NCBI GenBank assembly: GCA_937935075.1
Contig: CALGYB010000039.1
Coordinates: 1-64,000, forward strand
Direction of reading: 5' to 3'
Source: an uncultured Roseiflexus sp.
Lineage (GTDB): Bacteria; Chloroflexota; Chloroflexia; Chloroflexales; Roseiflexaceae
DNA: 64,000 bases
The first letter of the stretch is position 1. The number at the start of each line of letters is the position of its first letter. The notes beneath the pieces are model-generated. The model saw nothing but the letters and a program-made list of their open reading frames with translations. It did no database searches and had not been told where the DNA came from. Positions 3,525 to 13,471 of this stretch are shown here, piece after piece. A program made the translations under genes and the position numbers.

Positions 3525-4553
3525 ATGCGCAATATCCTGGTCGCCGGCGGCGCCGGTTTCATCGGCAGCAACTTCGTTGAATTGATGCTGGACAAATACC
3601 CCGACTACCGGATTATTGTCTATGATAAATTGACCTATGCAGGACGGCTGGAAAACCTGGCGCGCTTTCGGGACAATCCGCGCTTTGCGTTTGTGCGCGG
3701 CGACATTTGTGATCCCGCCGCCGTGCGCGAAACCTTCCGCGCCTACGACATCGATACCCTGGTCAATTTTGCCGCCGAGACGCACGTTGATCGTTCGATC
3801 ATGGACCCCGACGCCTTCATTCGCACCGATGTCTACGGGACGTATGTGCTGCTCGAAGCGGTGAAGGAAATGAAACTCGAACGCGCCCTGTTTGTCAGCA
3901 CCGATGAAGTCTATGGGCACATCGAACCGGGGCGCTCGTCGTCTGAGGATGATCCGCTCAAGCCACGCTCCCCATATGCGGCATCAAAGGCGGGCGGCGA
4001 GCATCTGGTATACGCCTACTACATCACCTATGGGCTGCCGGTGCTGATCACCCGCGGCACGAACAACATCGGTCCCTACCAGTACCCCGAAAAAGCCGTG
4101 CCGCTCTTCATCACGAACGCGATCGACGATGTTCCGCTGCCGCTCTACGGCGACGGACGGCAGATGCGCGACTATCAGTATGTGATGGATCACTGTGAGG
4201 GCATCGACGTCGTACTGCACCACGGCGCCATCGGCGAAGCATACAACATCGGCTCAGGCGTTGAGACCGAGAACATCGTGATGGCAAAGGCAATCCTCGA
4301 TCTTCTGGGCAAGCCCTACTCGTTGATCCAGCCGGTGGCGGATCGCCCGGGGCATGACCGACGCTACTCGGTGCGCACCGATAAGATCAAGGCGCTGGGA
4401 TGGCAGTCGCGCCACACATTCGCTCAGGCTATCGAAAAAACCGTGCGCTGGTACATCGAAAACCAGGACTGGTGGCGCCCCATCAAGTCGGGTGAGTTCA
4501 AGGAATACTATCGCAAGCAGTACCTGGAGCGGCAGGCAGCGCCAGTCGGATGA
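3525..4553 (+). CDS. rfbB: dTDP-glucose 4,6-dehydratase
   Basis: A 342-aa short-chain dehydrogenase/reductase of the extended type. It converts dTDP-glucose to dTDP-4-keto-6-deoxyglucose, the branch point for rhamnose and other deoxysugars of surface polysaccharides. The NAD-binding motif GGAGFIGSN is at residues 7-15. The STDEVYG motif carries the dehydratase acid/base residues, and the catalytic YxxxK is Y151/K155 (YAASKAGG). Length matches RmlB. GGAG lies before the ATG. No rmlA, rmlC or rmlD lies beside it, so the rest of the pathway must be elsewhere. Confidence 0.9.
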   Translation: MRNILVAGGAGFIGSNFVELMLDKYPDYRIIVYDKLTYAGRLENLARFRDNPRFAFVRGDICDPAAVRETFRAYDIDTLVNFAAETHVDRSIMDPDAFIRTDVYGTYVLLEAVKEMKLERALFVSTDEVYGHIEPGRSSSEDDPLKPRSPYAASKAGGEHLVYAYYITYGLPVLITRGTNNIGPYQYPEKAVPLFITNAIDDVPLPLYGDGRQMRDYQYVMDHCEGIDVVLHHGAIGEAYNIGSGVETENIVMAKAILDLLGKPYSLIQPVADRPGHDRRYSVRTDKIKALGWQSRHTFAQAIEKTVRWYIENQDWWRPIKSGEFKEYYRKQYLERQAAPVG

Positions 4554-5974: not shown

Positions 5975-8044
5975 TCAGTAAATATCGCGCACTGTGTTGT
6001 AGACATTGAACTTACCGGTCGGCGTCACCAGGTTGGGGATGCGCGCCTTTTCGGTCAGCGTTGCATCATCGTACACGACGATCTCGCCCGTTTCGCCCGG
6101 TTTGCTCGCATCGCCCCAGATGCTCACCCATACCTCCGTCCCGGCTGCGTTATACTCGAAATGCACGGCGCGCCCATAGGAACTGGCTTCCCAGCACTTG
6201 TGCGGCTCTGACGGATTTGCCTTCGCAATGACGCAGATCGTTCGCGCCAGCGCCGGATCGGAGTTGAGCGTCATATCCACCCAGATCCACCGGCTCTTCG
6301 GATGCGTCTTGATAAACAGACTTCCGGCGCCGGGCAGCGGCGTGACGCGCACCGCCTTCCAGGCTGAGTCCGGGTGTCCTTCGGGATCGGCGCCGATTGA
6401 GACAATCGCCGGATCACCCAGGTGCCCTGAACTCCAGACAGGACCAAACTCAGGATCGACCCAGTTGGCGCCGCGACCGGGGTGTGGGATTTTCGGCGTG
6501 TCCACCAGCGCAACCATGCGCCCTTCCTGAGCATCGACCACGGCAACCTTGTTCGATTGATTGGCTGCCACCAGGAAGTAGCGATGGGTTGCATCCCAGC
6601 CGCCGTCGTGGAGGAAGCGCGCCGCTGGCAGCATCTTGATCTGCGGCGCCTGCGGATCGGCATAGTTCACCAGCCAGATCTGCCCGATCTCCTTCACATT
6701 GATGATCCACTCCGGCTTGAAGTCGGAGGCGACAATACTGGCAACACGCGGCTCAGGATGGTATTCCTTGGTATCGACAGTATAGCCGCGGGTGCTGACG
6801 ATATGGATTGGTTCCAGGGTCTGACCATCGAGGATGACAAAGTGCGGGGGCCAGTAACAGCCCACCACTGCCAGTTTGTCCGTAAAATCGCCTTCTGGTC
6901 CATTGTACTTGCTGACCTCGACTGAACGTGCGTCGTAGCAGACCTGCACCTCGGCGACTTTAGCGGGCGTTTCCGTCCACAGGTCGATCATCGCCAGTTT
7001 CCCGTCGCGCCCAATCACATAGGCATAGCGTCCGGTCGCCGACATGCGGGTGATATGCACGGCATAGCCGCTGTCAACCTTGCTCACCACCTCATACGTA
7101 TCGCCGTCGATCACCGCCACCTGCCCGGCGTCACGCAGCGTGACCACGAAATAGTTCTGCCAGTTGCGCTTCGTCTGCGGCGTGGTCGGTCGCTGATCCG
7201 GCGCAACATACACCTTCCACGACTCCTTCATCCGTTCCATCGGCAATTCCGGCGGCGCCGGCGGCTCGCGTTGCAGGAATCGCGCCAGCACATCAATCTG
7301 CTCCTGGGTAAAGAAGCCCTGTTTGCCCCAATCGGGCATACCGCGTGATGTGCCGTTGTAGATGATGGTCGACAACCCGACCGTGCCAAGCGGAATGGTG
7401 TGATCAGGTGTCAGCGCCGGACCGGTTGCGCCTTTGCGCAGGGTGCCGTGACATCCGGCGCAGCGCTCGAAATAGATGAGTTTTGCCCAGGCGAACTCGT
7501 CGTCGCTCAGGGTTGGCGCAACTTCGGCTGGAGCGGCGGTTGATTCTTCGGTAACGACCGCTTCCGTTTCGCCGGGAGGCGCTTTCAGGTAGGCGACGAC
7601 CGCCGCCAGTTCCTCTTCAGACAACCCCTGCCCCAATGATGGCGGCATGACCCCCTTCTGGCACGGGCTGCCGTTGCACTCGGGGGCGATGAAGACATCC
7701 GGTTCGAGGATTGCTTCGCGGAGGTATGCTTCGACCGTCGTGGCGTTGCCGGTGTAGGCGTTGCTCTGCATCGTCTGAGCAGCAACCTGTGCGATGTTCG
7801 TGAGGTCCGGTCCGATGGTTCCTCTGGCGTTGGGAACGCCAGGGATGACGTGACACGCGCCACAACCGCCTTTCTGGAACGCCGCCAGTGCGAGATCGCC
7901 AGATGGCGCGGTTGTGGCGGCTACCGGCGCCGCCTGTGGAACTGGCGCGGTTGCGGTTGGCGATACCTCCGCCTGACGCGCACAGGCAACCAGAATGACC
8001 AATCCCAGCATGGCGCCAAAGACGATGTGCTTCCATGGGCGCAT
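5975..8044 (-). CDS. nirS: Cytochrome cd1 nitrite reductase-like lipoprotein with an extra cytochrome c domain (NirC-NirS type fusion)
   Basis: A 689-aa exported protein. The start at 8044 follows AAGGAGG. The signal ends in a lipobox LVAC (C21). Heme c sites are CGACH (61-65) and CAGCH (195-199); NirS normally has only one. Residues about 280-689 form the heme-d1 propeller: GYAVH (H330) matches the d1 ligand, and FLHDGG (H479) and PHPGRGAN (H521) match the two catalytic distal histidines. The C-terminus TPTGKFNVYN is typical of NirS. Known family chemistry is reduction of nitrite to NO. Related d1-binding proteins NirN and NirF are the alternatives, but both catalytic histidines favour NirS. 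No d1-heme synthesis gene lies nearby. The promoter carries a CRP-type site. Confidence 0.8.
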   Translation of the reverse strand: MRPWKHIVFGAMLGLVILVACARQAEVSPTATAPVPQAAPVAATTAPSGDLALAAFQKGGCGACHVIPGVPNARGTIGPDLTNIAQVAAQTMQSNAYTGNATTVEAYLREAILEPDVFIAPECNGSPCQKGVMPPSLGQGLSEEELAAVVAYLKAPPGETEAVVTEESTAAPAEVAPTLSDDEFAWAKLIYFERCAGCHGTLRKGATGPALTPDHTIPLGTVGLSTIIYNGTSRGMPDWGKQGFFTQEQIDVLARFLQREPPAPPELPMERMKESWKVYVAPDQRPTTPQTKRNWQNYFVVTLRDAGQVAVIDGDTYEVVSKVDSGYAVHITRMSATGRYAYVIGRDGKLAMIDLWTETPAKVAEVQVCYDARSVEVSKYNGPEGDFTDKLAVVGCYWPPHFVILDGQTLEPIHIVSTRGYTVDTKEYHPEPRVASIVASDFKPEWIINVKEIGQIWLVNYADPQAPQIKMLPAARFLHDGGWDATHRYFLVAANQSNKVAVVDAQEGRMVALVDTPKIPHPGRGANWVDPEFGPVWSSGHLGDPAIVSIGADPEGHPDSAWKAVRVTPLPGAGSLFIKTHPKSRWIWVDMTLNSDPALARTICVIAKANPSEPHKCWEASSYGRAVHFEYNAAGTEVWVSIWGDASKPGETGEIVVYDDATLTEKARIPNLVTPTGKFNVYNTVRDIY

Positions 8045-8102: not shown

Positions 8103-8145
8103 AGTATACGCCGCAGGAAACAAACCGTCTGTGACTTTTCTCACA
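8103..8145 (-). promoter_or_regulatory. Class II Crp/Fnr-type promoter of the cd1 gene
   Basis: The palindrome TGTGA-CTTTTC-TCACA (8130-8145) is a perfect CRP-family consensus. On the minus strand it lies 21 bp upstream of TATACT (8103-8108 read on the minus strand), which places its centre near -41.5. There is no good -35, as expected for an activator-dependent promoter. The same module with the same spacing occurs before the ferredoxin gene. Confidence 0.75.
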
Positions 8146-8166
8146 ACCCTCGAACTCGCTGATCCG

Positions 8167-10830
8167 TCAGACGATAAATGCGCCCGGATTGAGGCGTCCA
8201 TCCGCGCCCCAGCGCCGCCGCATCTCCTGCATCCGGTCGAGCGCGTCGGGCGTGAAGCCCCACCGGTCGAAGCGCGCGCGCGCCGGCGCCGCCAGTGCGA
8301 TAGCGTAGCCGTTGAGCGTGCGCGCAGCGATGCGCAGGCGATCCAGCATGCGGGATGCATCCTCCGGGTGCGGCGCCGGCGCGCGCACATACACCTGCCC
8401 CGCCGCCAGATCCGTCAGATACGACTCATTCCCGCCAAAACCGGCGCGCTGCATGAACGCGCGGATATCCTTCGGCGCAACCCCAACCCGCACCAGCAAG
8501 TCTTCCGGTTGTGCGGCATTGATGAATGCGCCCCACAGATCGCAGCCTGAAGGCGCGTTGATCTGAACCGCCGGAATGTCGGCGCTGCGCAGCGCAGCGC
8601 GCACGGCGGCAATCTCCGCCGTGACATCCTCTGCCAGCCCTTCGGCAGTGTAGACGAGCAGCGTTGTTGGGCGACGATCCAGCGCCACCGGCAACTCTGA
8701 CAGCCAATCCCCGCCATCGGCGATCTCCAGTGTCAGCACCGCTGACGCAACCAGCGACTGCTGCGCCAGCGCTGCACCAACGTCGAGCGCCTGCGCAATC
8801 CGCCGTGGCGTGGCGATCACGGTTGCACGCGCGCGCGGCAGCGGCGCCAGTTTCAACGTCACATCACAGAGCAGCCCTAACGTCCCATGTGCGCCAACGT
8901 GCACTTTATGCAGATCGTACCCCGCCACATTCTTGACCACCGGTCGCCCAATGCGTGCCACGCGCCCGTCGGGAAGGGCGATGGTCGCCGCCAGCAGCAT
9001 GTCGCGGATGCTGCCGTAGCGCATGCGGAGCGGTGCATTGGCATTCGCCGCAATCAGGCCGCCAATCGTCGCAGCAGACCAGGGGGATGCCAGCGGCGCC
9101 CACATCCGGTGTTCTTGCAACACTGCCTGCAACTCCTCCAGCCGCATCCCGGCGCCAACGGTCACATACAGGTCTTCCGGGGCAAGCGCGCGAATGCCGG
9201 ACAGACACCCGGTGGAGAGCACTGCATCGGCAGGCGGCAAAAGCGCCGATTTCGTCCCGCCACCGCGAATGCGCACGCTCTTCCCTGCATCGATAAGGGC
9301 GTGCAGCGTTTCTGCCGCTTCCTCCGGGCTTTCTGGCGTAGCGACAGGTGGTGTGGCAGACGCTTCCGCTATTTCCGGCGAGTGTATGACCGGCGCCGAG
9401 TCTGTCGGACGCCCATTGTGCGACGGCGCAACCACCTCTTCACGCGGCGGCAGCACCTTTCCGGGGTTCATAATACCCACCGGATCGAAGATCTCCTTCA
9501 TATCCCACATCAATGAAAGTTCGGTGGGACCGTACATGAGCGACATAAACGCGCGCTTTTCAATGCCGACGCCATGCTCGCCGGTGATGCTGCCGCCTGC
9601 TGCGACGCATGCAGCCAGGATTTTGCGCCCGGTTTCGAGGATGCGCGCAATCAGCGTTCGATCCGAGGGGTCTTCGATCAGAATGAGCGGGTGCAGGTTG
9701 CCGTCGCCAGCGTGGAATACATGACCGGTGCGGAACCCGTCCGCTTCGATGATTTGATTGACGATCGCAAGTGTTTCCGCCAGTTTGCTGCGTGGCACGG
9801 TGCCATCGAGCAGATAGTATGCCGGCGCCAGCCGCGCCATCGCGCCGGCTGCGCTCTTGCGCGCAAACCAGATGCGGTCACGCTCGGCAGCGCTTTGCGC
9901 AATGCGCATTTCGCGCACATTGCACTCGCGAAGCGTTGCTTCGATCTCGGCGATTTGCGGTCCGACGCTTTCGGGGTACCCATCGACCTCGATGATCAGC
10001 ACTGCGCCGGCATCGAGCGGCAATCCGGGATGGGCATACTCCTCGACAATGCGCACAATGCTCGAGTCCATCATTTCCATCGTTGCCGGCACTAACCCAC
10101 GTGCAATAATGGCTGAGACCGCTTCTCCGGCGTGTTCAACACTGTCGAAGGCTGCCAGCATGGTGCGCACGGCGGGCGGGTCGCGCAGCACGCGCAGATC
10201 GGCGCGGGTGATGATGCCGAGTGTGCCTTCACTGCCGACAAACAGCGCCGTCAGGTCGTATGCTGGCATATCAAATGCGCGTCCGCCGGTGTGAATGATT
10301 CGTCCGTCGCTCAGCACAACTTCAAGCCCGGTGACATAGTTGCTCGTGACGCCATATTTGAAGCAGTGCGGTCCGCCAGCGTTTGTGCCGATATTACCGC
10401 CGATCGTCGCCGTGCGCTGACTTGAGGGGTCGGGCGGAAAGAACAGACCGTGCTTGCGCACCTGGTTATCGAAGATCAGGTTCACCGTCCCGGCTTCGAC
10501 AACCGCGCTGTGCCCGATCAGGTCCAGTTCCAGCACCTTGTTCATCAGGCCAAGTTGCACCACCAGCCCGCCGATTTCGGGCACAGCGCCGCCAGCCAGC
10601 CCGGTGCCCGAACCGCGCGCAATCAGGGGGGTGCGATGTTCGGCAGCCCAGCGCACCACCTGGACAACCTCATCAACTGAACGGGGAAACACGACGCCAT
10701 CGGGATGTCCGCGGTCGAAACTGCCATCGACTTCGTAGGTGATCAGTTGCGCCGGATCGACGACAACGCGATCGGGACCGAGACGTGCGGCGAGATCGGC
10801 AAGCAGCGCCTGAGTATCAGCAGTGGTCAT
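8167..10830 (-). CDS. GlcD-GlcE fusion: FAD-linked (glycolate-type) oxidase
   Basis: An 887-aa protein starting at 10830 (GAGG upstream). Residues 1-about 480 are GlcD-like: an FAD PCMH domain (IARGSGTGLAGGAV, SSQRTATIGGNIGTNAGG) and a C-terminal oxidase domain with GDGNLHP and TGEHGVGIEKR. After a linker rich in P/S/E, residues about 540-887 are GlcE-like: a second PCMH domain (IRGGGTKSALL, ATIGGLIAANANAP) ending in GRLNPGAF. In Escherichia coli GlcD and GlcE are separate subunits that act with the iron-sulfur subunit GlcF to oxidise glycolate to glyoxylate. No GlcF-like gene is adjacent. The substrate may be glycolate, lactate or another 2-hydroxyacid. Confidence 0.85.
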   Translation of the reverse strand: MTTADTQALLADLAARLGPDRVVVDPAQLITYEVDGSFDRGHPDGVVFPRSVDEVVQVVRWAAEHRTPLIARGSGTGLAGGAVPEIGGLVVQLGLMNKVLELDLIGHSAVVEAGTVNLIFDNQVRKHGLFFPPDPSSQRTATIGGNIGTNAGGPHCFKYGVTSNYVTGLEVVLSDGRIIHTGGRAFDMPAYDLTALFVGSEGTLGIITRADLRVLRDPPAVRTMLAAFDSVEHAGEAVSAIIARGLVPATMEMMDSSIVRIVEEYAHPGLPLDAGAVLIIEVDGYPESVGPQIAEIEATLRECNVREMRIAQSAAERDRIWFARKSAAGAMARLAPAYYLLDGTVPRSKLAETLAIVNQIIEADGFRTGHVFHAGDGNLHPLILIEDPSDRTLIARILETGRKILAACVAAGGSITGEHGVGIEKRAFMSLMYGPTELSLMWDMKEIFDPVGIMNPGKVLPPREEVVAPSHNGRPTDSAPVIHSPEIAEASATPPVATPESPEEAAETLHALIDAGKSVRIRGGGTKSALLPPADAVLSTGCLSGIRALAPEDLYVTVGAGMRLEELQAVLQEHRMWAPLASPWSAATIGGLIAANANAPLRMRYGSIRDMLLAATIALPDGRVARIGRPVVKNVAGYDLHKVHVGAHGTLGLLCDVTLKLAPLPRARATVIATPRRIAQALDVGAALAQQSLVASAVLTLEIADGGDWLSELPVALDRRPTTLLVYTAEGLAEDVTAEIAAVRAALRSADIPAVQINAPSGCDLWGAFINAAQPEDLLVRVGVAPKDIRAFMQRAGFGGNESYLTDLAAGQVYVRAPAPHPEDASRMLDRLRIAARTLNGYAIALAAPARARFDRWGFTPDALDRMQEMRRRWGADGRLNPGAFIV

Positions 10831-10956
10831 AGCATCCTCGCATCTGGTGTTCTGCTTTGCGGGTATGCGTCTCAGTATATCATACATGCGCGCGGCGCTG
10901 TGTTGATCGCCTGTCTTTCTTCTCGTGGGCGCCTGACAGATGTATTCATTGGCAGG

Positions 10957-11002
10957 AAAAAAAAGCATCCGGCGTCTCACAGTGCGGAAACGCCGGATGC
11001 TT
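10957..11002 (-). terminator. Intrinsic terminator of the FKBP gene
   Basis: Read on the minus strand, AAGCATCCGGCGT (11002-10990) pairs with ACGCCGGATGCTT (10975-10963) and is followed by a run of eight T (10964-10957). It lies 24 bp after the FKBP stop codon. This is the clearest rho-independent terminator in the window. Confidence 0.9.
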
Positions 11003-11025
11003 GTTCTATGTGCCGAAATTGTCGG

Positions 11026-11454
11026 CTATTCAATTGCCACCAGTTCGATATCGAATGTCAATGTGGCGCCTGCCAGCGGATGATTGGCGTCGAATGTCAC
11101 ATCGGACGGCGACACATCGCGCACTGTAACGATGAACGTCTGACCGTCGGGGCGACGCATCTGATACTGCTCGCCAACTGCCGGATCGATCTGCGGTGGA
11201 AGTTCATCACGGCTCAGCGAGAAGACCAGCTCATCGTGATATTCGCCATACGCCTGATCTGGCGTCAGCACAGTGCGGCGCGTCTCACCCTCCTGCATGC
11301 CGACCACTGCCTCCTCGAACCCCTGAATGACCTGCCCGCTGCCCAGCGTAAACACCAGCGGTTCACGACCGTGCGAACTGTCGAAGACGGTGCCATCTTC
11401 CAGCGTGCCGGTGTAGTGCACTGTCACGGTGTCGCCAGTTTGTGCCGTTGCCAT
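11026..11454 (-). CDS. FKBP-type peptidyl-prolyl cis-trans isomerase (SlyD-like)
   Basis: A 142-aa protein with no signal peptide, so probably a cytoplasmic folding helper. It opens MATAQTGDTVTVHYTGTLEDG and has FDSS, GSGQVIQGFE and the C-terminal LTFDIELVAIE strand of FKBP folds. The insert between them (LTPDQAYGEYHDELV... VTFDANHPLAG) is the chaperone flap of SlyD-type FKBPs. The ATG at 11454 follows an AGGAG. It is monocistronic, with a promoter at 11562-11590 and a strong terminator. Confidence 0.9.
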   Translation of the reverse strand: MATAQTGDTVTVHYTGTLEDGTVFDSSHGREPLVFTLGSGQVIQGFEEAVVGMQEGETRRTVLTPDQAYGEYHDELVFSLSRDELPPQIDPAVGEQYQMRRPDGQTFIVTVRDVSPSDVTFDANHPLAGATLTFDIELVAIE

Positions 11455-11561
11455 TGTGTACTCCTGTTTGGTAGCGGCTCGACGATATCGCCGGGCGTGT
11501 GATGCGCATGCACATCCAGGCCAGGAGATGGCGCAAGCCACATCTGTTGTTGCATACGTAC

Positions 11562-11590
11562 AGCATACCATGTGAATGGCAAGGGTGCAA
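11562..11590 (-). promoter_or_regulatory. FKBP promoter
   Basis: On the minus strand TTGCAC (11590-11585), a 17-bp spacer and TATGCT (11567-11562) fit a sigma70-type promoter. It implies a 5' untranslated region of about 100 nt. Confidence 0.5.
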
Positions 11591-11632
11591 AGCGTGTGCA
11601 CGCAGTAAGTATTCACGGTTGCGATAAACGAT

Positions 11633-11738
11633 GCCGCCAGTCGCCCCAAAATGGGGGTTCGGGGGCTGCCCCCGAAAAGGAGCAGCGGCGGCGGAATAGC
11701 CTCAGCGAGCGCCAACGCACGGCGCCCCGAGGCGCCGC
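11633..11738 (+). repeat. Dispersed GC-rich repeat, copy 1
   Basis: The sequence from GCCGCCAGTCGCCCC to CGCACGGCGCCCC matches the reverse complement of 46742-46853 with scattered substitutions and small indels. Shared blocks include CCCCCGAAA, GCGGCGGCGGAA and CGCCAACGCACGGCG. It lies between two divergent genes and has no coding sense. Confidence 0.7.
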
Positions 11739-11967
11739 ATATCACGCCTGCGCTCGCAGGACAAGTGTGAACAGGCGCCGCACGCACAGGGCGCAGTCAT
11801 GAATTGACAATCTCATCGTTCGTTTCTCACGCTTCATTCGCCATCGTGTACAATAGAGAATGATAAGACAATCAAACGCCCGCTTTCAGCCTTCTGTCGT
11901 GTGCAGCACATATTCGGCGGAAGCCTGCGCCGCTTCCCGAAAACTGCACTGGAAAGCGAGGCCATGG

Positions 11968-12639
11968 ATGCCGGTCGAAAGCGCCGAGATTCGTCGCGTC
12001 GAGTTATTTGCCGATCTGCCGGAGCAAGAGTGTGTTGCGCTGGCGTCGATTGCGCTGCGCGTGCGCTACGCCGCCGGCGCGACGCTCTTTCTTGCTGGCG
12101 ATCCATCGCCTGGGCTATATGTGCTCCTCAGCGGTCGGGTGCGCCTGTCACGCATATCGCCAAACGGTCGTGAGCAGGTCATCCATATCGTTACACCAGG
12201 GCATCATTTCAATTCCGTACCCGTGTTCGACGGCGGTCCGTGTCCGGTCAACGCATCGGCTCAGACCGACGTGACGGCGCTGTTGTTTCCAGGCGAGCGG
12301 CTCCATGCCCTCATTCTGGAACATCCGGCGGTTGCGCTGCGCCTGCTGGCCGACTCGTGCAGGTATCTGCGGCAGTTGGTGGATCTGGTGGACGATCTGG
12401 CGCTCACCACGGTGCAGGGTCGCCTGGCGCGTCTGTTGCTGACGCAGGCGGAATCTGGCGAGCAGGGTTTCGTTCAGCCGCTCACCCAAAGTGAAATGGC
12501 GGCGCGCCTTGGCACGGTGCGCGAGATGGTCGGACGATCACTGAAGACCTTCGAGGCAATGGGGCTGATCCGCATTGAGCGCGGTGTCATCGTCATCGTT
12601 GATCGCACAGGTCTTGAACGTGAAAGTGAACGGGAATGA
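11968..12639 (+). CDS. Crp/Fnr family transcriptional regulator
   Basis: A 223-aa regulator. The cyclic-nucleotide-type sensor domain spans residues about 10-120 (GATLFLAGDPSPGLYVLLSG), the dimer helix about 120-150, and the winged helix about 150-215. The recognition helix LGTVREMVGRSL carries R185-E186-x3-R190, the same triad that CRP uses (R180, E181, R185) to read TGTGA. FNR-type N-terminal cysteines are absent, so it is not a classical iron-sulfur FNR. The ATG at 11968 has GAGG upstream; an earlier in-frame start would add 36 unlike residues. TGTGA-type palindromes occur at the cd1 and ferredoxin-ccmE promoters, its likely targets (inference). Confidence 0.85.
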   Translation: MPVESAEIRRVELFADLPEQECVALASIALRVRYAAGATLFLAGDPSPGLYVLLSGRVRLSRISPNGREQVIHIVTPGHHFNSVPVFDGGPCPVNASAQTDVTALLFPGERLHALILEHPAVALRLLADSCRYLRQLVDLVDDLALTTVQGRLARLLLTQAESGEQGFVQPLTQSEMAARLGTVREMVGRSLKTFEAMGLIRIERGVIVIVDRTGLERESERE

Positions 12640-12650
12640 AACCGAACTGC

Positions 12651-12710
12651 GGGCAGGCGAAGGCATTGCCTTCACCTGCCCGGCGGTCGCTGAGCGGGTC
12701 GAAGCGCCGC
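12651..12710. repeat. Two hairpins after the crp gene, the second a constant-loop hairpin (copy 2)
   Basis: GGGCAGGCGAAGGCA (12651-12665) pairs, with one mismatch, with TGCCTTCACCTGCCC ending at 12681. Next, GCGGTCGCT (12683-12691) and AGCGCCGC (12703-12710) flank the loop GAGCGGGTCGA. No U-run follows either. They may mark the 3' end of the crp transcript and of the convergent ccmE transcript. Confidence 0.5.
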
Positions 12711-12740
12711 ACGTCCCATGGCGATGTTTCGGATAAGCGA

Positions 12741-13160
12741 TTAGCGCGCAATATCCTGCTCGTGGTATTTTGACGGACACTTGACCAGCACCTGATCGGC
12801 AAGGAAGAACTGCTGATTCGCGTCGTATCGTCCGATGACTACAATGCTCGTCGCCAATTCGAAGTGCGACGGTTTCGGCTCATGGCTGACGATTGTGACC
12901 CGTCGACCGGTTTCGTCCTCAAGAACGAACGTAAATCGTCCCTGCGCATCATACGTTCCCGCGCTGCTGAGAAAGCCGACCAGTTGAACACTGCGCCCGC
13001 TCTCGATCGCCTCATCGATGCGCTCCGTATAGGGGCGGAACGAGTCCCGCAGCCCGCCATAACTGAGGAGCGCCGCCGCAACGATCAGAATTATTCCCGC
13101 AGCCTGCACCGGCGTGACAGGCAGGCGGCGCTGATGCGGAAGGACCGTGCGCCGGATCAT
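12741..13160 (-). CDS. ccmE: CcmE-like heme chaperone, CxxxY type
   Basis: A 139-aa protein with one N-terminal membrane anchor (about 16-36) and an OB-fold (VQLVGFLSSAGTYDAQGRFTF). CcmE carries heme to apocytochromes in system I cytochrome c maturation, binding it through His in the motif HxxxY. Here the motif is C128-PSK-Y132 within LVKCPSKYHE, the CxxxY variant described for some archaea and sulfate reducers. The start codon overlaps the ferredoxin stop (ATGA), so the two are coupled. No other ccm gene is adjacent. Confidence 0.75.
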   Translation of the reverse strand: MIRRTVLPHQRRLPVTPVQAAGIILIVAAALLSYGGLRDSFRPYTERIDEAIESGRSVQLVGFLSSAGTYDAQGRFTFVLEDETGRRVTIVSHEPKPSHFELATSIVVIGRYDANQQFFLADQVLVKCPSKYHEQDIAR

Positions 13161-13384
13161 ACACTCCTCCATTGCTGGCTGGTCTCGAACACGATGATGA
13201 AGGGACGCCCAATTGCGCCGGTGGGGCATGCCCGCTCACAGGCATCACAATAGGTGCAATCGTATGGGCGAACAATGACGGCTTTGTGCTTGATCAGTTC
13301 CACCGCCTGTGTCGGACAGTGCTGCACACACTGTCCACAGCCGGTGCAGCGGTCGTGATTGATCGCAGGAAGCGTCCAGGGCAT
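13157..13384 (-). CDS. 2[4Fe-4S] ferredoxin
   Basis: A 75-aa protein with two classic cluster motifs: CTGCGQCVQHCP near residues 12-23 and CTYCDACERACP near residues 43-54. It would carry electrons at low potential in the cytoplasm. The start at 13384 has AGAGGAG upstream; the longer frame is rejected because it would begin inside the promoter. It is the first gene of a two-gene operon with ccmE. Its promoter resembles that of the cd1 gene, which hints that it supplies electrons under the same condition. Confidence 0.85.
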   Translation of the reverse strand: MPWTLPAINHDRCTGCGQCVQHCPTQAVELIKHKAVIVRPYDCTYCDACERACPTGAIGRPFIIVFETSQQWRSV

Positions 13385-13428
13385 GGTTATGTGCTCCTCT
13401 CTGCTTGAGCGCCCGCATTCTGACCTCC

Positions 13429-13471
13429 AGTGTACTCTGGCAGGAACGCCTCGTCTGTGACTTTTCTCGCA
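13429..13471 (-). promoter_or_regulatory. Class II Crp/Fnr-type promoter of ferredoxin-ccmE
   Basis: The near-perfect palindrome TGTGA-CTTTTC-TCGCA (13456-13471) lies, on the minus strand, 21 bp upstream of TACACT (13434-13429). Palindrome core and spacing equal those of the cd1 promoter, and even the spacer shares GACG and TTCCTGC. The site also lies 72 bp before the divergent rarD gene and could act there too. Confidence 0.75.

Follow-up and report, generated by a model that had tools for sequence, protein, structure and literature searches.

A promoter module shared by nirS and a ferredoxin-ccmE operon in Roseiflexus points to a Crp-type nitrogen-oxide regulon in Chloroflexota

A shared promoter module upstream of nirS and fdx-ccmE

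Within a 64,000-nucleotide stretch of DNA from an uncultured Roseiflexus sp. (contig CALGYB010000039.1, positions 1 to 64,000; hereafter, the window), we identified a 43-bp promoter module shared by nirS, encoding a cytochrome cd1 nitrite reductase, and by an operon encoding a ferredoxin and the c-type cytochrome maturation factor CcmE (fdx-ccmE). Read on the minus strand, the module comprises a CRP-type palindrome, 21 bp and a -10 hexamer (TGNGANAAANNTCRCA-N21-TANNNT), and spans positions 8103-8145 and 13429-13471. From its conservation in other genera and the genes that it precedes, we consider it very probable that a neighbouring Crp-type regulator (11968-12639) activates both transcription units in response to a nitrogen oxide.

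Re-reading of the sequence bore out the original prediction in its essentials: both promoters carry the palindrome, the 21-bp spacing and the -10 hexamer, and both palindromes enclose the same six bases (GAAAAG; Table 1). With 21 bp between operator and predicted -10 box, the operator centre is predicted to lie at -41.5. The spacer motifs said to be shared held up only in part, as GACG opens each spacer, whereas TTCCTGC, although present in both, lies one base out of register and is absent from the orthologous promoters of a second genus (G005), and was rejected as a functional spacer element. Similarly, the description of the two promoters as unlinked is loose for the window, where they lie 5.3 kb apart on one strand, but apt for G005, where they are found on separate contigs. 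The claim that such a coincidence is hard to explain by chance also required refinement. The generic palindrome TGNGA-N6-TCNCA occurs twice in 64 kb against an expectation of 1.11, with at least two copies in 29 of 100 shuffles, and the palindrome count by itself was dropped as evidence. Conversely, a pattern search for the full module across the 4.85-Mb genome holding the window (G000) returned exactly two occurrences, corresponding to the nirS and fdx-ccmE promoters; judged by the comparative evidence, which decides the matter, the full module is beyond chance.

Table 1. Features of the window and of related genomes discussed in the text.
Feature	Positions	Strand	Basis or context
nirS, lipoprotein-type cytochrome cd1 nitrite reductase (C1-C2-NirS)	5975..8044	-	Pfam, NirS match, motifs
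Predicted nirS -10 hexamer, TATACT	8103..8108	-	21 bp past operator 1; predicted start ~8096
Operator 1, TGTGAGAAAAGTCACA (TGTGA-GAAAAG-TCACA)	8130..8145	-	Upstream of nirS
Crp-type regulator, proposed binder; recognition helix GTVREMVGR	11968..12639	+	Pfam cNMP_binding and HTH_Crp_2
ccmE, stand-alone second CcmE, CPSKY type	12741..13160	-	Pfam CcmE; 4-base overlap with fdx
fdx, small 2[4Fe-4S] ferredoxin	13157..13384	-	Pfam Fer4 and Fer4_7; start and ribosome-binding site
Predicted fdx-ccmE -10 hexamer, TACACT	13429..13434	-	21 bp past operator 2; predicted start ~13422
Operator 2, TGCGAGAAAAGTCACA (TGCGA-GAAAAG-TCACA)	13456..13471	-	Upstream of fdx-ccmE
G001 module before cupin-ywiC-nrfH-nrfA			21 bp, TACACT
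G001 module before fdx and membrane protein			22 bp, TATACT
G001 module before cytochrome c-nar			22 bp, TAGAAT
Orphan operator in congener, L193	2681-2696
Orphan operator in congener, L194	7436-7451
Orphan operator in congener, L195	8912-8927

Conservation of the module across genera and across the phylum

In G005, a genome of a different genus, the module was found before both orthologous genes, and the original prediction thereby withstood the refuting check it had named, absence at orthologous promoters. Here, a NirS orthologue of 80% identity is preceded by TGTGAGAAAAGTCACT, 22 bp and TATACT, and fdx-ccmE, on a contig other than that of nirS, by TGCGAAAAAAGTCACA, 21 bp and TACACT, such that operators and -10 hexamers are kept while the spacers differ from those of the window. 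In G005 as in the window, the regulator (69% identical) and fdx-ccmE are convergent neighbours, so that the regulator adjoins this operon in two genera. A third genus, represented by G001, has no NirS; its regulator orthologue (54% identical) resides within a nitrate/nitrite (nar/nrf) cluster carrying three modules, in which NrfH, NarH, NarJ and NarI exceed their NCBIfam cut-offs and NrfA gives a strong Pfam match. A further site lies ahead of a divergent ferredoxin gene in G004. Also recurring beside the regulator are two families of membrane proteins, of 377 amino acids (L077, 8064-9197) and 150 amino acids (L152, 1849-2298). The first has no match in Pfam or NCBIfam, and the name NnrS for its G001 member was dropped; the second has none in NCBIfam. 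Protoglobin is likewise no more than a tentative label for the target at L166.

To extend the comparison, five orthologous regulators were aligned and used to scan genomes of the GTDB, yielding 68 loci, nearly all labelled Chloroflexota, in which TGNGANAAANNTCNCA occurs 24 times compared with once in reversed sequence. Together with those of the window and G005 and two paralogue sites, we gathered 26 unique sites without use of the -10 region. A TANNNT hexamer follows at 21 bp in 19 of the 26 and at 22 bp in another five, i.e. 24 in all, compared to a mean of 0.76 and a maximum of 5 in shuffled controls at the two distances combined. With the window and G005 set aside, 20 of 22 sites still fit, against ~1.3 expected from the TANNNT rate in those stretches. 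A position-weight matrix, trained on sites of these same loci, gave 48 hits versus 3 in reversed sequence. Most of the 26 sites lie before nirK, nirS, nrfHA, nar, nosZ or ferredoxin genes; the downstream genes feature a nirK fused to a cupredoxin and a nosZ of clade II (832 bits, above cut-off). When 400 Chloroflexota genomes were scanned independently, 26 modules were found versus 2 in reversed controls. Some of these modules precede nirK (six genomes, all of one genus); others precede a gene resembling nrfH, a gene pair for a cupin and a membrane protein, and a ferredoxin gene. A sigma-70-like gene was also observed ~50 bp past a module in G186, G279 and G265 (L218, L219 and L225, near 1501).

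An explanation by chance likeness or by recent duplication of a promoter, with no shared regulatory function, might draw on the GACG and TTCCTGC common to both spacers and on the unremarkable number of generic palindromes. It is contradicted by G005, in which operators and -10 hexamers persist between different spacers, as well as by the two scans (26 versus 2 and 48 versus 3), and we regard it as barely conceivable. The recurrence that the original prediction had proposed was thus found, with three copies in the nar/nrf cluster of G001 and others before nirK, nrf, nos and ferredoxin genes. The same putative switch before nitrite-, nitrate- and nitrous-oxide-reducing genes points to one regulator family across Chloroflexota, which supports the candidate regulon while giving it a scope wider than nitrite reductase.

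Loss of the putative target genes in congeners

A search of 82 genomes of the order recovered NirS from G000 and G005 only. Five genomes of the same genus as G000 lack NirS, and their best matches to the regulator, at 42-44% identity, are at the level of paralogues. In two of these congeners, G009 and G010, the alignment to the window stops at 4535 and restarts at 8128, at the palindrome, with operator 1 kept at 16/16 positions and nirS gone. In G012 the crp-ccmE-fdx block is absent and operator 2 remains as an orphan (15/16), its -10 hexamer decayed to TGCATC, and in G013 block and operator are both absent. Orphan operators at these scars imply that nirS or crp-ccmE-fdx was once present and then lost; their perfect retention in two cases hints at recent loss or at another use. 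In these genomes, joint absence ties regulator, nirS and fdx-ccmE together.

A CRP-like regulator with a divergent ligand pocket

The regulator belongs to the Crp/Fnr superfamily, with matches to PF00027 (78.9 bits) and PF13545 (59.1 bits) that both exceed cut-off. Its recognition helix retains the contact residues R, E and R of Escherichia coli CRP, fitting TGTGA sites, and GTVREMVGR is near-invariant among the loci, partly by selection, given that the helix was one of the scan patterns. Residues R180 and E181 were previously reported to correlate with site positions G3 and A6 (Rodionov et al. 2005, PMC1274295). Phylogenetic reconstruction placed the regulator in a 15-member clade (support 98/99), separate from a paralogue of the same genome, and most clade members with enough flanking sequence adjoin nirK, nrf/nar or fdx. 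Regulators on two contigs labelled Gracilibacteria and Phenylobacterium (L119 and L126) also fall inside the Chloroflexota clade, and these contigs are probably misbinned. Taken together, sequence comparison offers good support for recognition of the modules by the neighbouring Crp protein.

None of the NCBIfam equivalog cut-offs was reached by the regulator (CRP, 63 bits versus 266; Fnr, 21 versus 228), and its closest solved structures are actinobacterial CRPs, at 132 bits. The phosphate-binding cassette for cyclic AMP (cAMP; E, R, S/T) is missing, with Cys92 aligned to the cAMP-binding Arg and the Glu position not occupied by Glu. This makes cAMP an unlikely ligand, and an identity as cAMP-CRP was rejected on pocket residues and the NCBIfam cut-off. 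Likewise rejected was an identity as FNR: the regulator orthologues do not share a set of N-terminal cysteines that could hold a [4Fe-4S] cluster, the sites are of the form TGYGA-N6-TCACA and not TTGAT-N4-ATCAA, and the NCBIfam score is below cut-off. We also rejected His80/Cys92 as a phylum-wide sensor signature, since Cys92 hardly occurs outside the Chloroflexia clade, and even there His80 is kept only in part. The targets make nitric oxide (NO) or nitrite the natural guess for the ligand.

Proposed mechanism of activation

In the class II arrangement of CRP/FNR promoters, the dimer is centred at -41.5 and faces the polymerase, whose -10 box lies at a distance of 21 bp. The 21 bp at both window sites, and the 21 or 22 bp in 24/26 sites overall, fit this arrangement. 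In the mechanism we propose, a dimer of the neighbouring regulator would bind TGYGA-NAAAAG-TCACA with its centre near -41.5 and contact RNA polymerase at the -10 box 21 bp downstream, resulting in class II activation. By this means a nitrogen oxide would switch on nirS and the fdx-ccmE operon; NO or nitrite is the most likely signal, and low oxygen may contribute. The ferredoxin and second CcmE may provide redox supply and c-heme loading for the induced multiheme enzyme.

Several observations weigh against this mechanism. The -10 boxes were called by consensus only; a search ahead of the window's regulator gene revealed no operator, and autoregulation was dropped from the model; the operators that persist without nirS in G009 and G010 could have some other function; and a few modules precede genes unrelated to nitrogen oxides (e.g. 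sigma-factor genes; one distant lineage). To these may be added two features of the Crp paralogues. The helix of one paralogue in G000 (G000:C124:65112-65738), TVREIAGR, presents the same R, E and R contacts, and in G002 and G003 TGAGACAAAAGTCGCA comes after the gene for a paralogous Crp (L083 and L084, 1504-1519 in each), with 21 bp, TACAGT or TATAGT and a ferredoxin-like gene beyond it. The operator might then be real, with a paralogue such as that of G000 as its main binder and the adjacent regulator overlapping in function or acting on other targets. We consider this unlikely. The congeners retain the paralogue yet are without the adjacent-type regulator, nirS and fdx-ccmE; the best matrix score in the paralogue's own neighbourhood in G000 is 16.1, with no site comparable to the two modules (35-38); and it is the clade of the adjacent regulator whose members, in one genus after another, neighbour site-bearing nirK, nrf, nar or fdx genes.

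Sequence does not reveal the direction of control, and the genes behind some modules have no known part in nitrogen-oxide metabolism. The sites might instead repress, or have a purpose other than the nitrogen-oxide response, e.g. general redox or carbon control. Against this, the 21-bp gap in 19/26 sites corresponds to the class II activator position with no conserved -35 box in its stead, and most targets that could be identified encode nitrogen-oxide reductases or lie next to genes that do. We hold repression or an unrelated role to be very unlikely, and activation by the adjacent regulator remains our favoured interpretation.

The NirS enzyme and the puzzle of its heme d1

Window NirS matches Pfam Cytochrom_D1 at 425 bits and Pseudomonas aeruginosa NirS at 601 bits, and possesses two CxxCH motifs together with the d1-ligand and active-site histidine motifs, placing it among NirS enzymes of the cd1 type. 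Its start codon is preceded by AAGGAGG (8057-8051). An extra cytochrome c domain lies N-terminal to the cd1 part, giving the C1-C2-NirS domain order that Schwartz et al. (2022, PMC8756737) described in Chloroflexi; that study does not cover regulation, and Crp, FNR, promoters and ferredoxin are unmentioned. Directly upstream of nirS and on the same strand, a single open reading frame (8167-10830) fuses GlcD- and GlcE-like halves.

The main ccmE of G000 is located on G000:C116, among genes resembling a ccm operon, and the ccmE of the window is hence a second copy. No module was found at this main ccm locus. Within the family, a second ccmE was identified only in G000 and G005, the two NirS-bearing genomes; two ccmE entries in G007 are pieces of one gene.

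Searches of G000 and G005, whose completeness is 99.95% and 100%, for heme d1 biosynthesis identified no second strong d1-domain protein (NirF/NirN), no PF17805 protein (NirD/L/G/H), and no NirJ above cut-off, the latter being also missed in control genomes, so that this search has no positive control. NirJ was again below cut-off in two more genomes with NirS-like proteins beside the regulator. This absence bears on the function of NirS and not on the family of the enzyme. With its catalytic histidines kept and no known d1 biosynthesis gene found, the source of heme d1 in these two genomes is, on sequence evidence, a puzzle. Since the known pathway appears to be absent, a new route via the ferredoxin and CcmE may be envisaged. 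In such a scheme, a Chloroflexota-wide sensor family would have had its cAMP pocket rebuilt for a heme- or thiol-borne NO signal (in the Chloroflexia clade with Cys92 for Arg and often His80), and where a member also bears NirS, the ferredoxin and second CcmE induced along with it would supply the enzyme with heme d1, or a substitute, by that route. We offer this as speculation and consider it rather unlikely.

Significance and comparison with known systems

Chloroflexota carry nirK, nirS, nrfA and nosZ, and a search of the open-access literature, with subscription papers outside its reach, identified no described nitrogen-oxide regulator for this phylum; the regulator family appears not to have been described previously. 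The 43-bp module names a candidate regulator, and with it genes for nitrite, nitrate and N2O reduction can be predicted in one genome after another. A particular ferredoxin and a stand-alone CcmE are thereby connected to NirS. A puzzle is exposed as well, in that this NirS keeps its active-site residues although searches of the genomes that encode it found no heme d1 pathway.

Among known regulators, E. coli cAMP-CRP and actinobacterial Crp/GlxR share with the present system the TGTGA half-site, the R/E/R helix residues and the class II position; unlike the window regulator, with its Cys92 in place of Arg, cAMP-CRP possesses the cAMP phosphate-binding residues. The sites of DNR and NnrR are FNR-like, of the TTGAT/TTGAC type, whereas TGNGA (G at half-site positions 2 and 4) is found here in 26/26 sites. 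DNR is a detectable relative of the regulator (84 bits), but not the closest of those with solved structures. In Proteobacteria, DNR and NnrR, also of the Crp/Fnr superfamily, activate nir, nor and nos upon NO (PMC1274295).

Comparison with HcpR, made by published description, reveals membership in the Crp/Fnr superfamily, a TGTGA-N6-TCACA operator and a ferredoxin target as common features. In Desulfovibrio the HcpR operator is wTGTGAnnnnnnTCACAw, with the ferredoxin frdX as a core target, and in Geobacter and Desulfuromonas the regulon reaches nrfHA and nar (Rodionov et al. 2005, PMC1274295). The two systems differ in that hcp, the core target of HcpR, was not seen near the window regulator (no genome-wide search for hcp was made), and in that the present candidate regulon includes nirS, nirK and nosZ. 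Furthermore, HcpR of Geobacter recognizes TTGAC-N4-GTCAA, in contrast to the window-type operator with its fixed AAAA core. By analogy, the regulon defined by the module would work like those of HcpR and DNR/NnrR.

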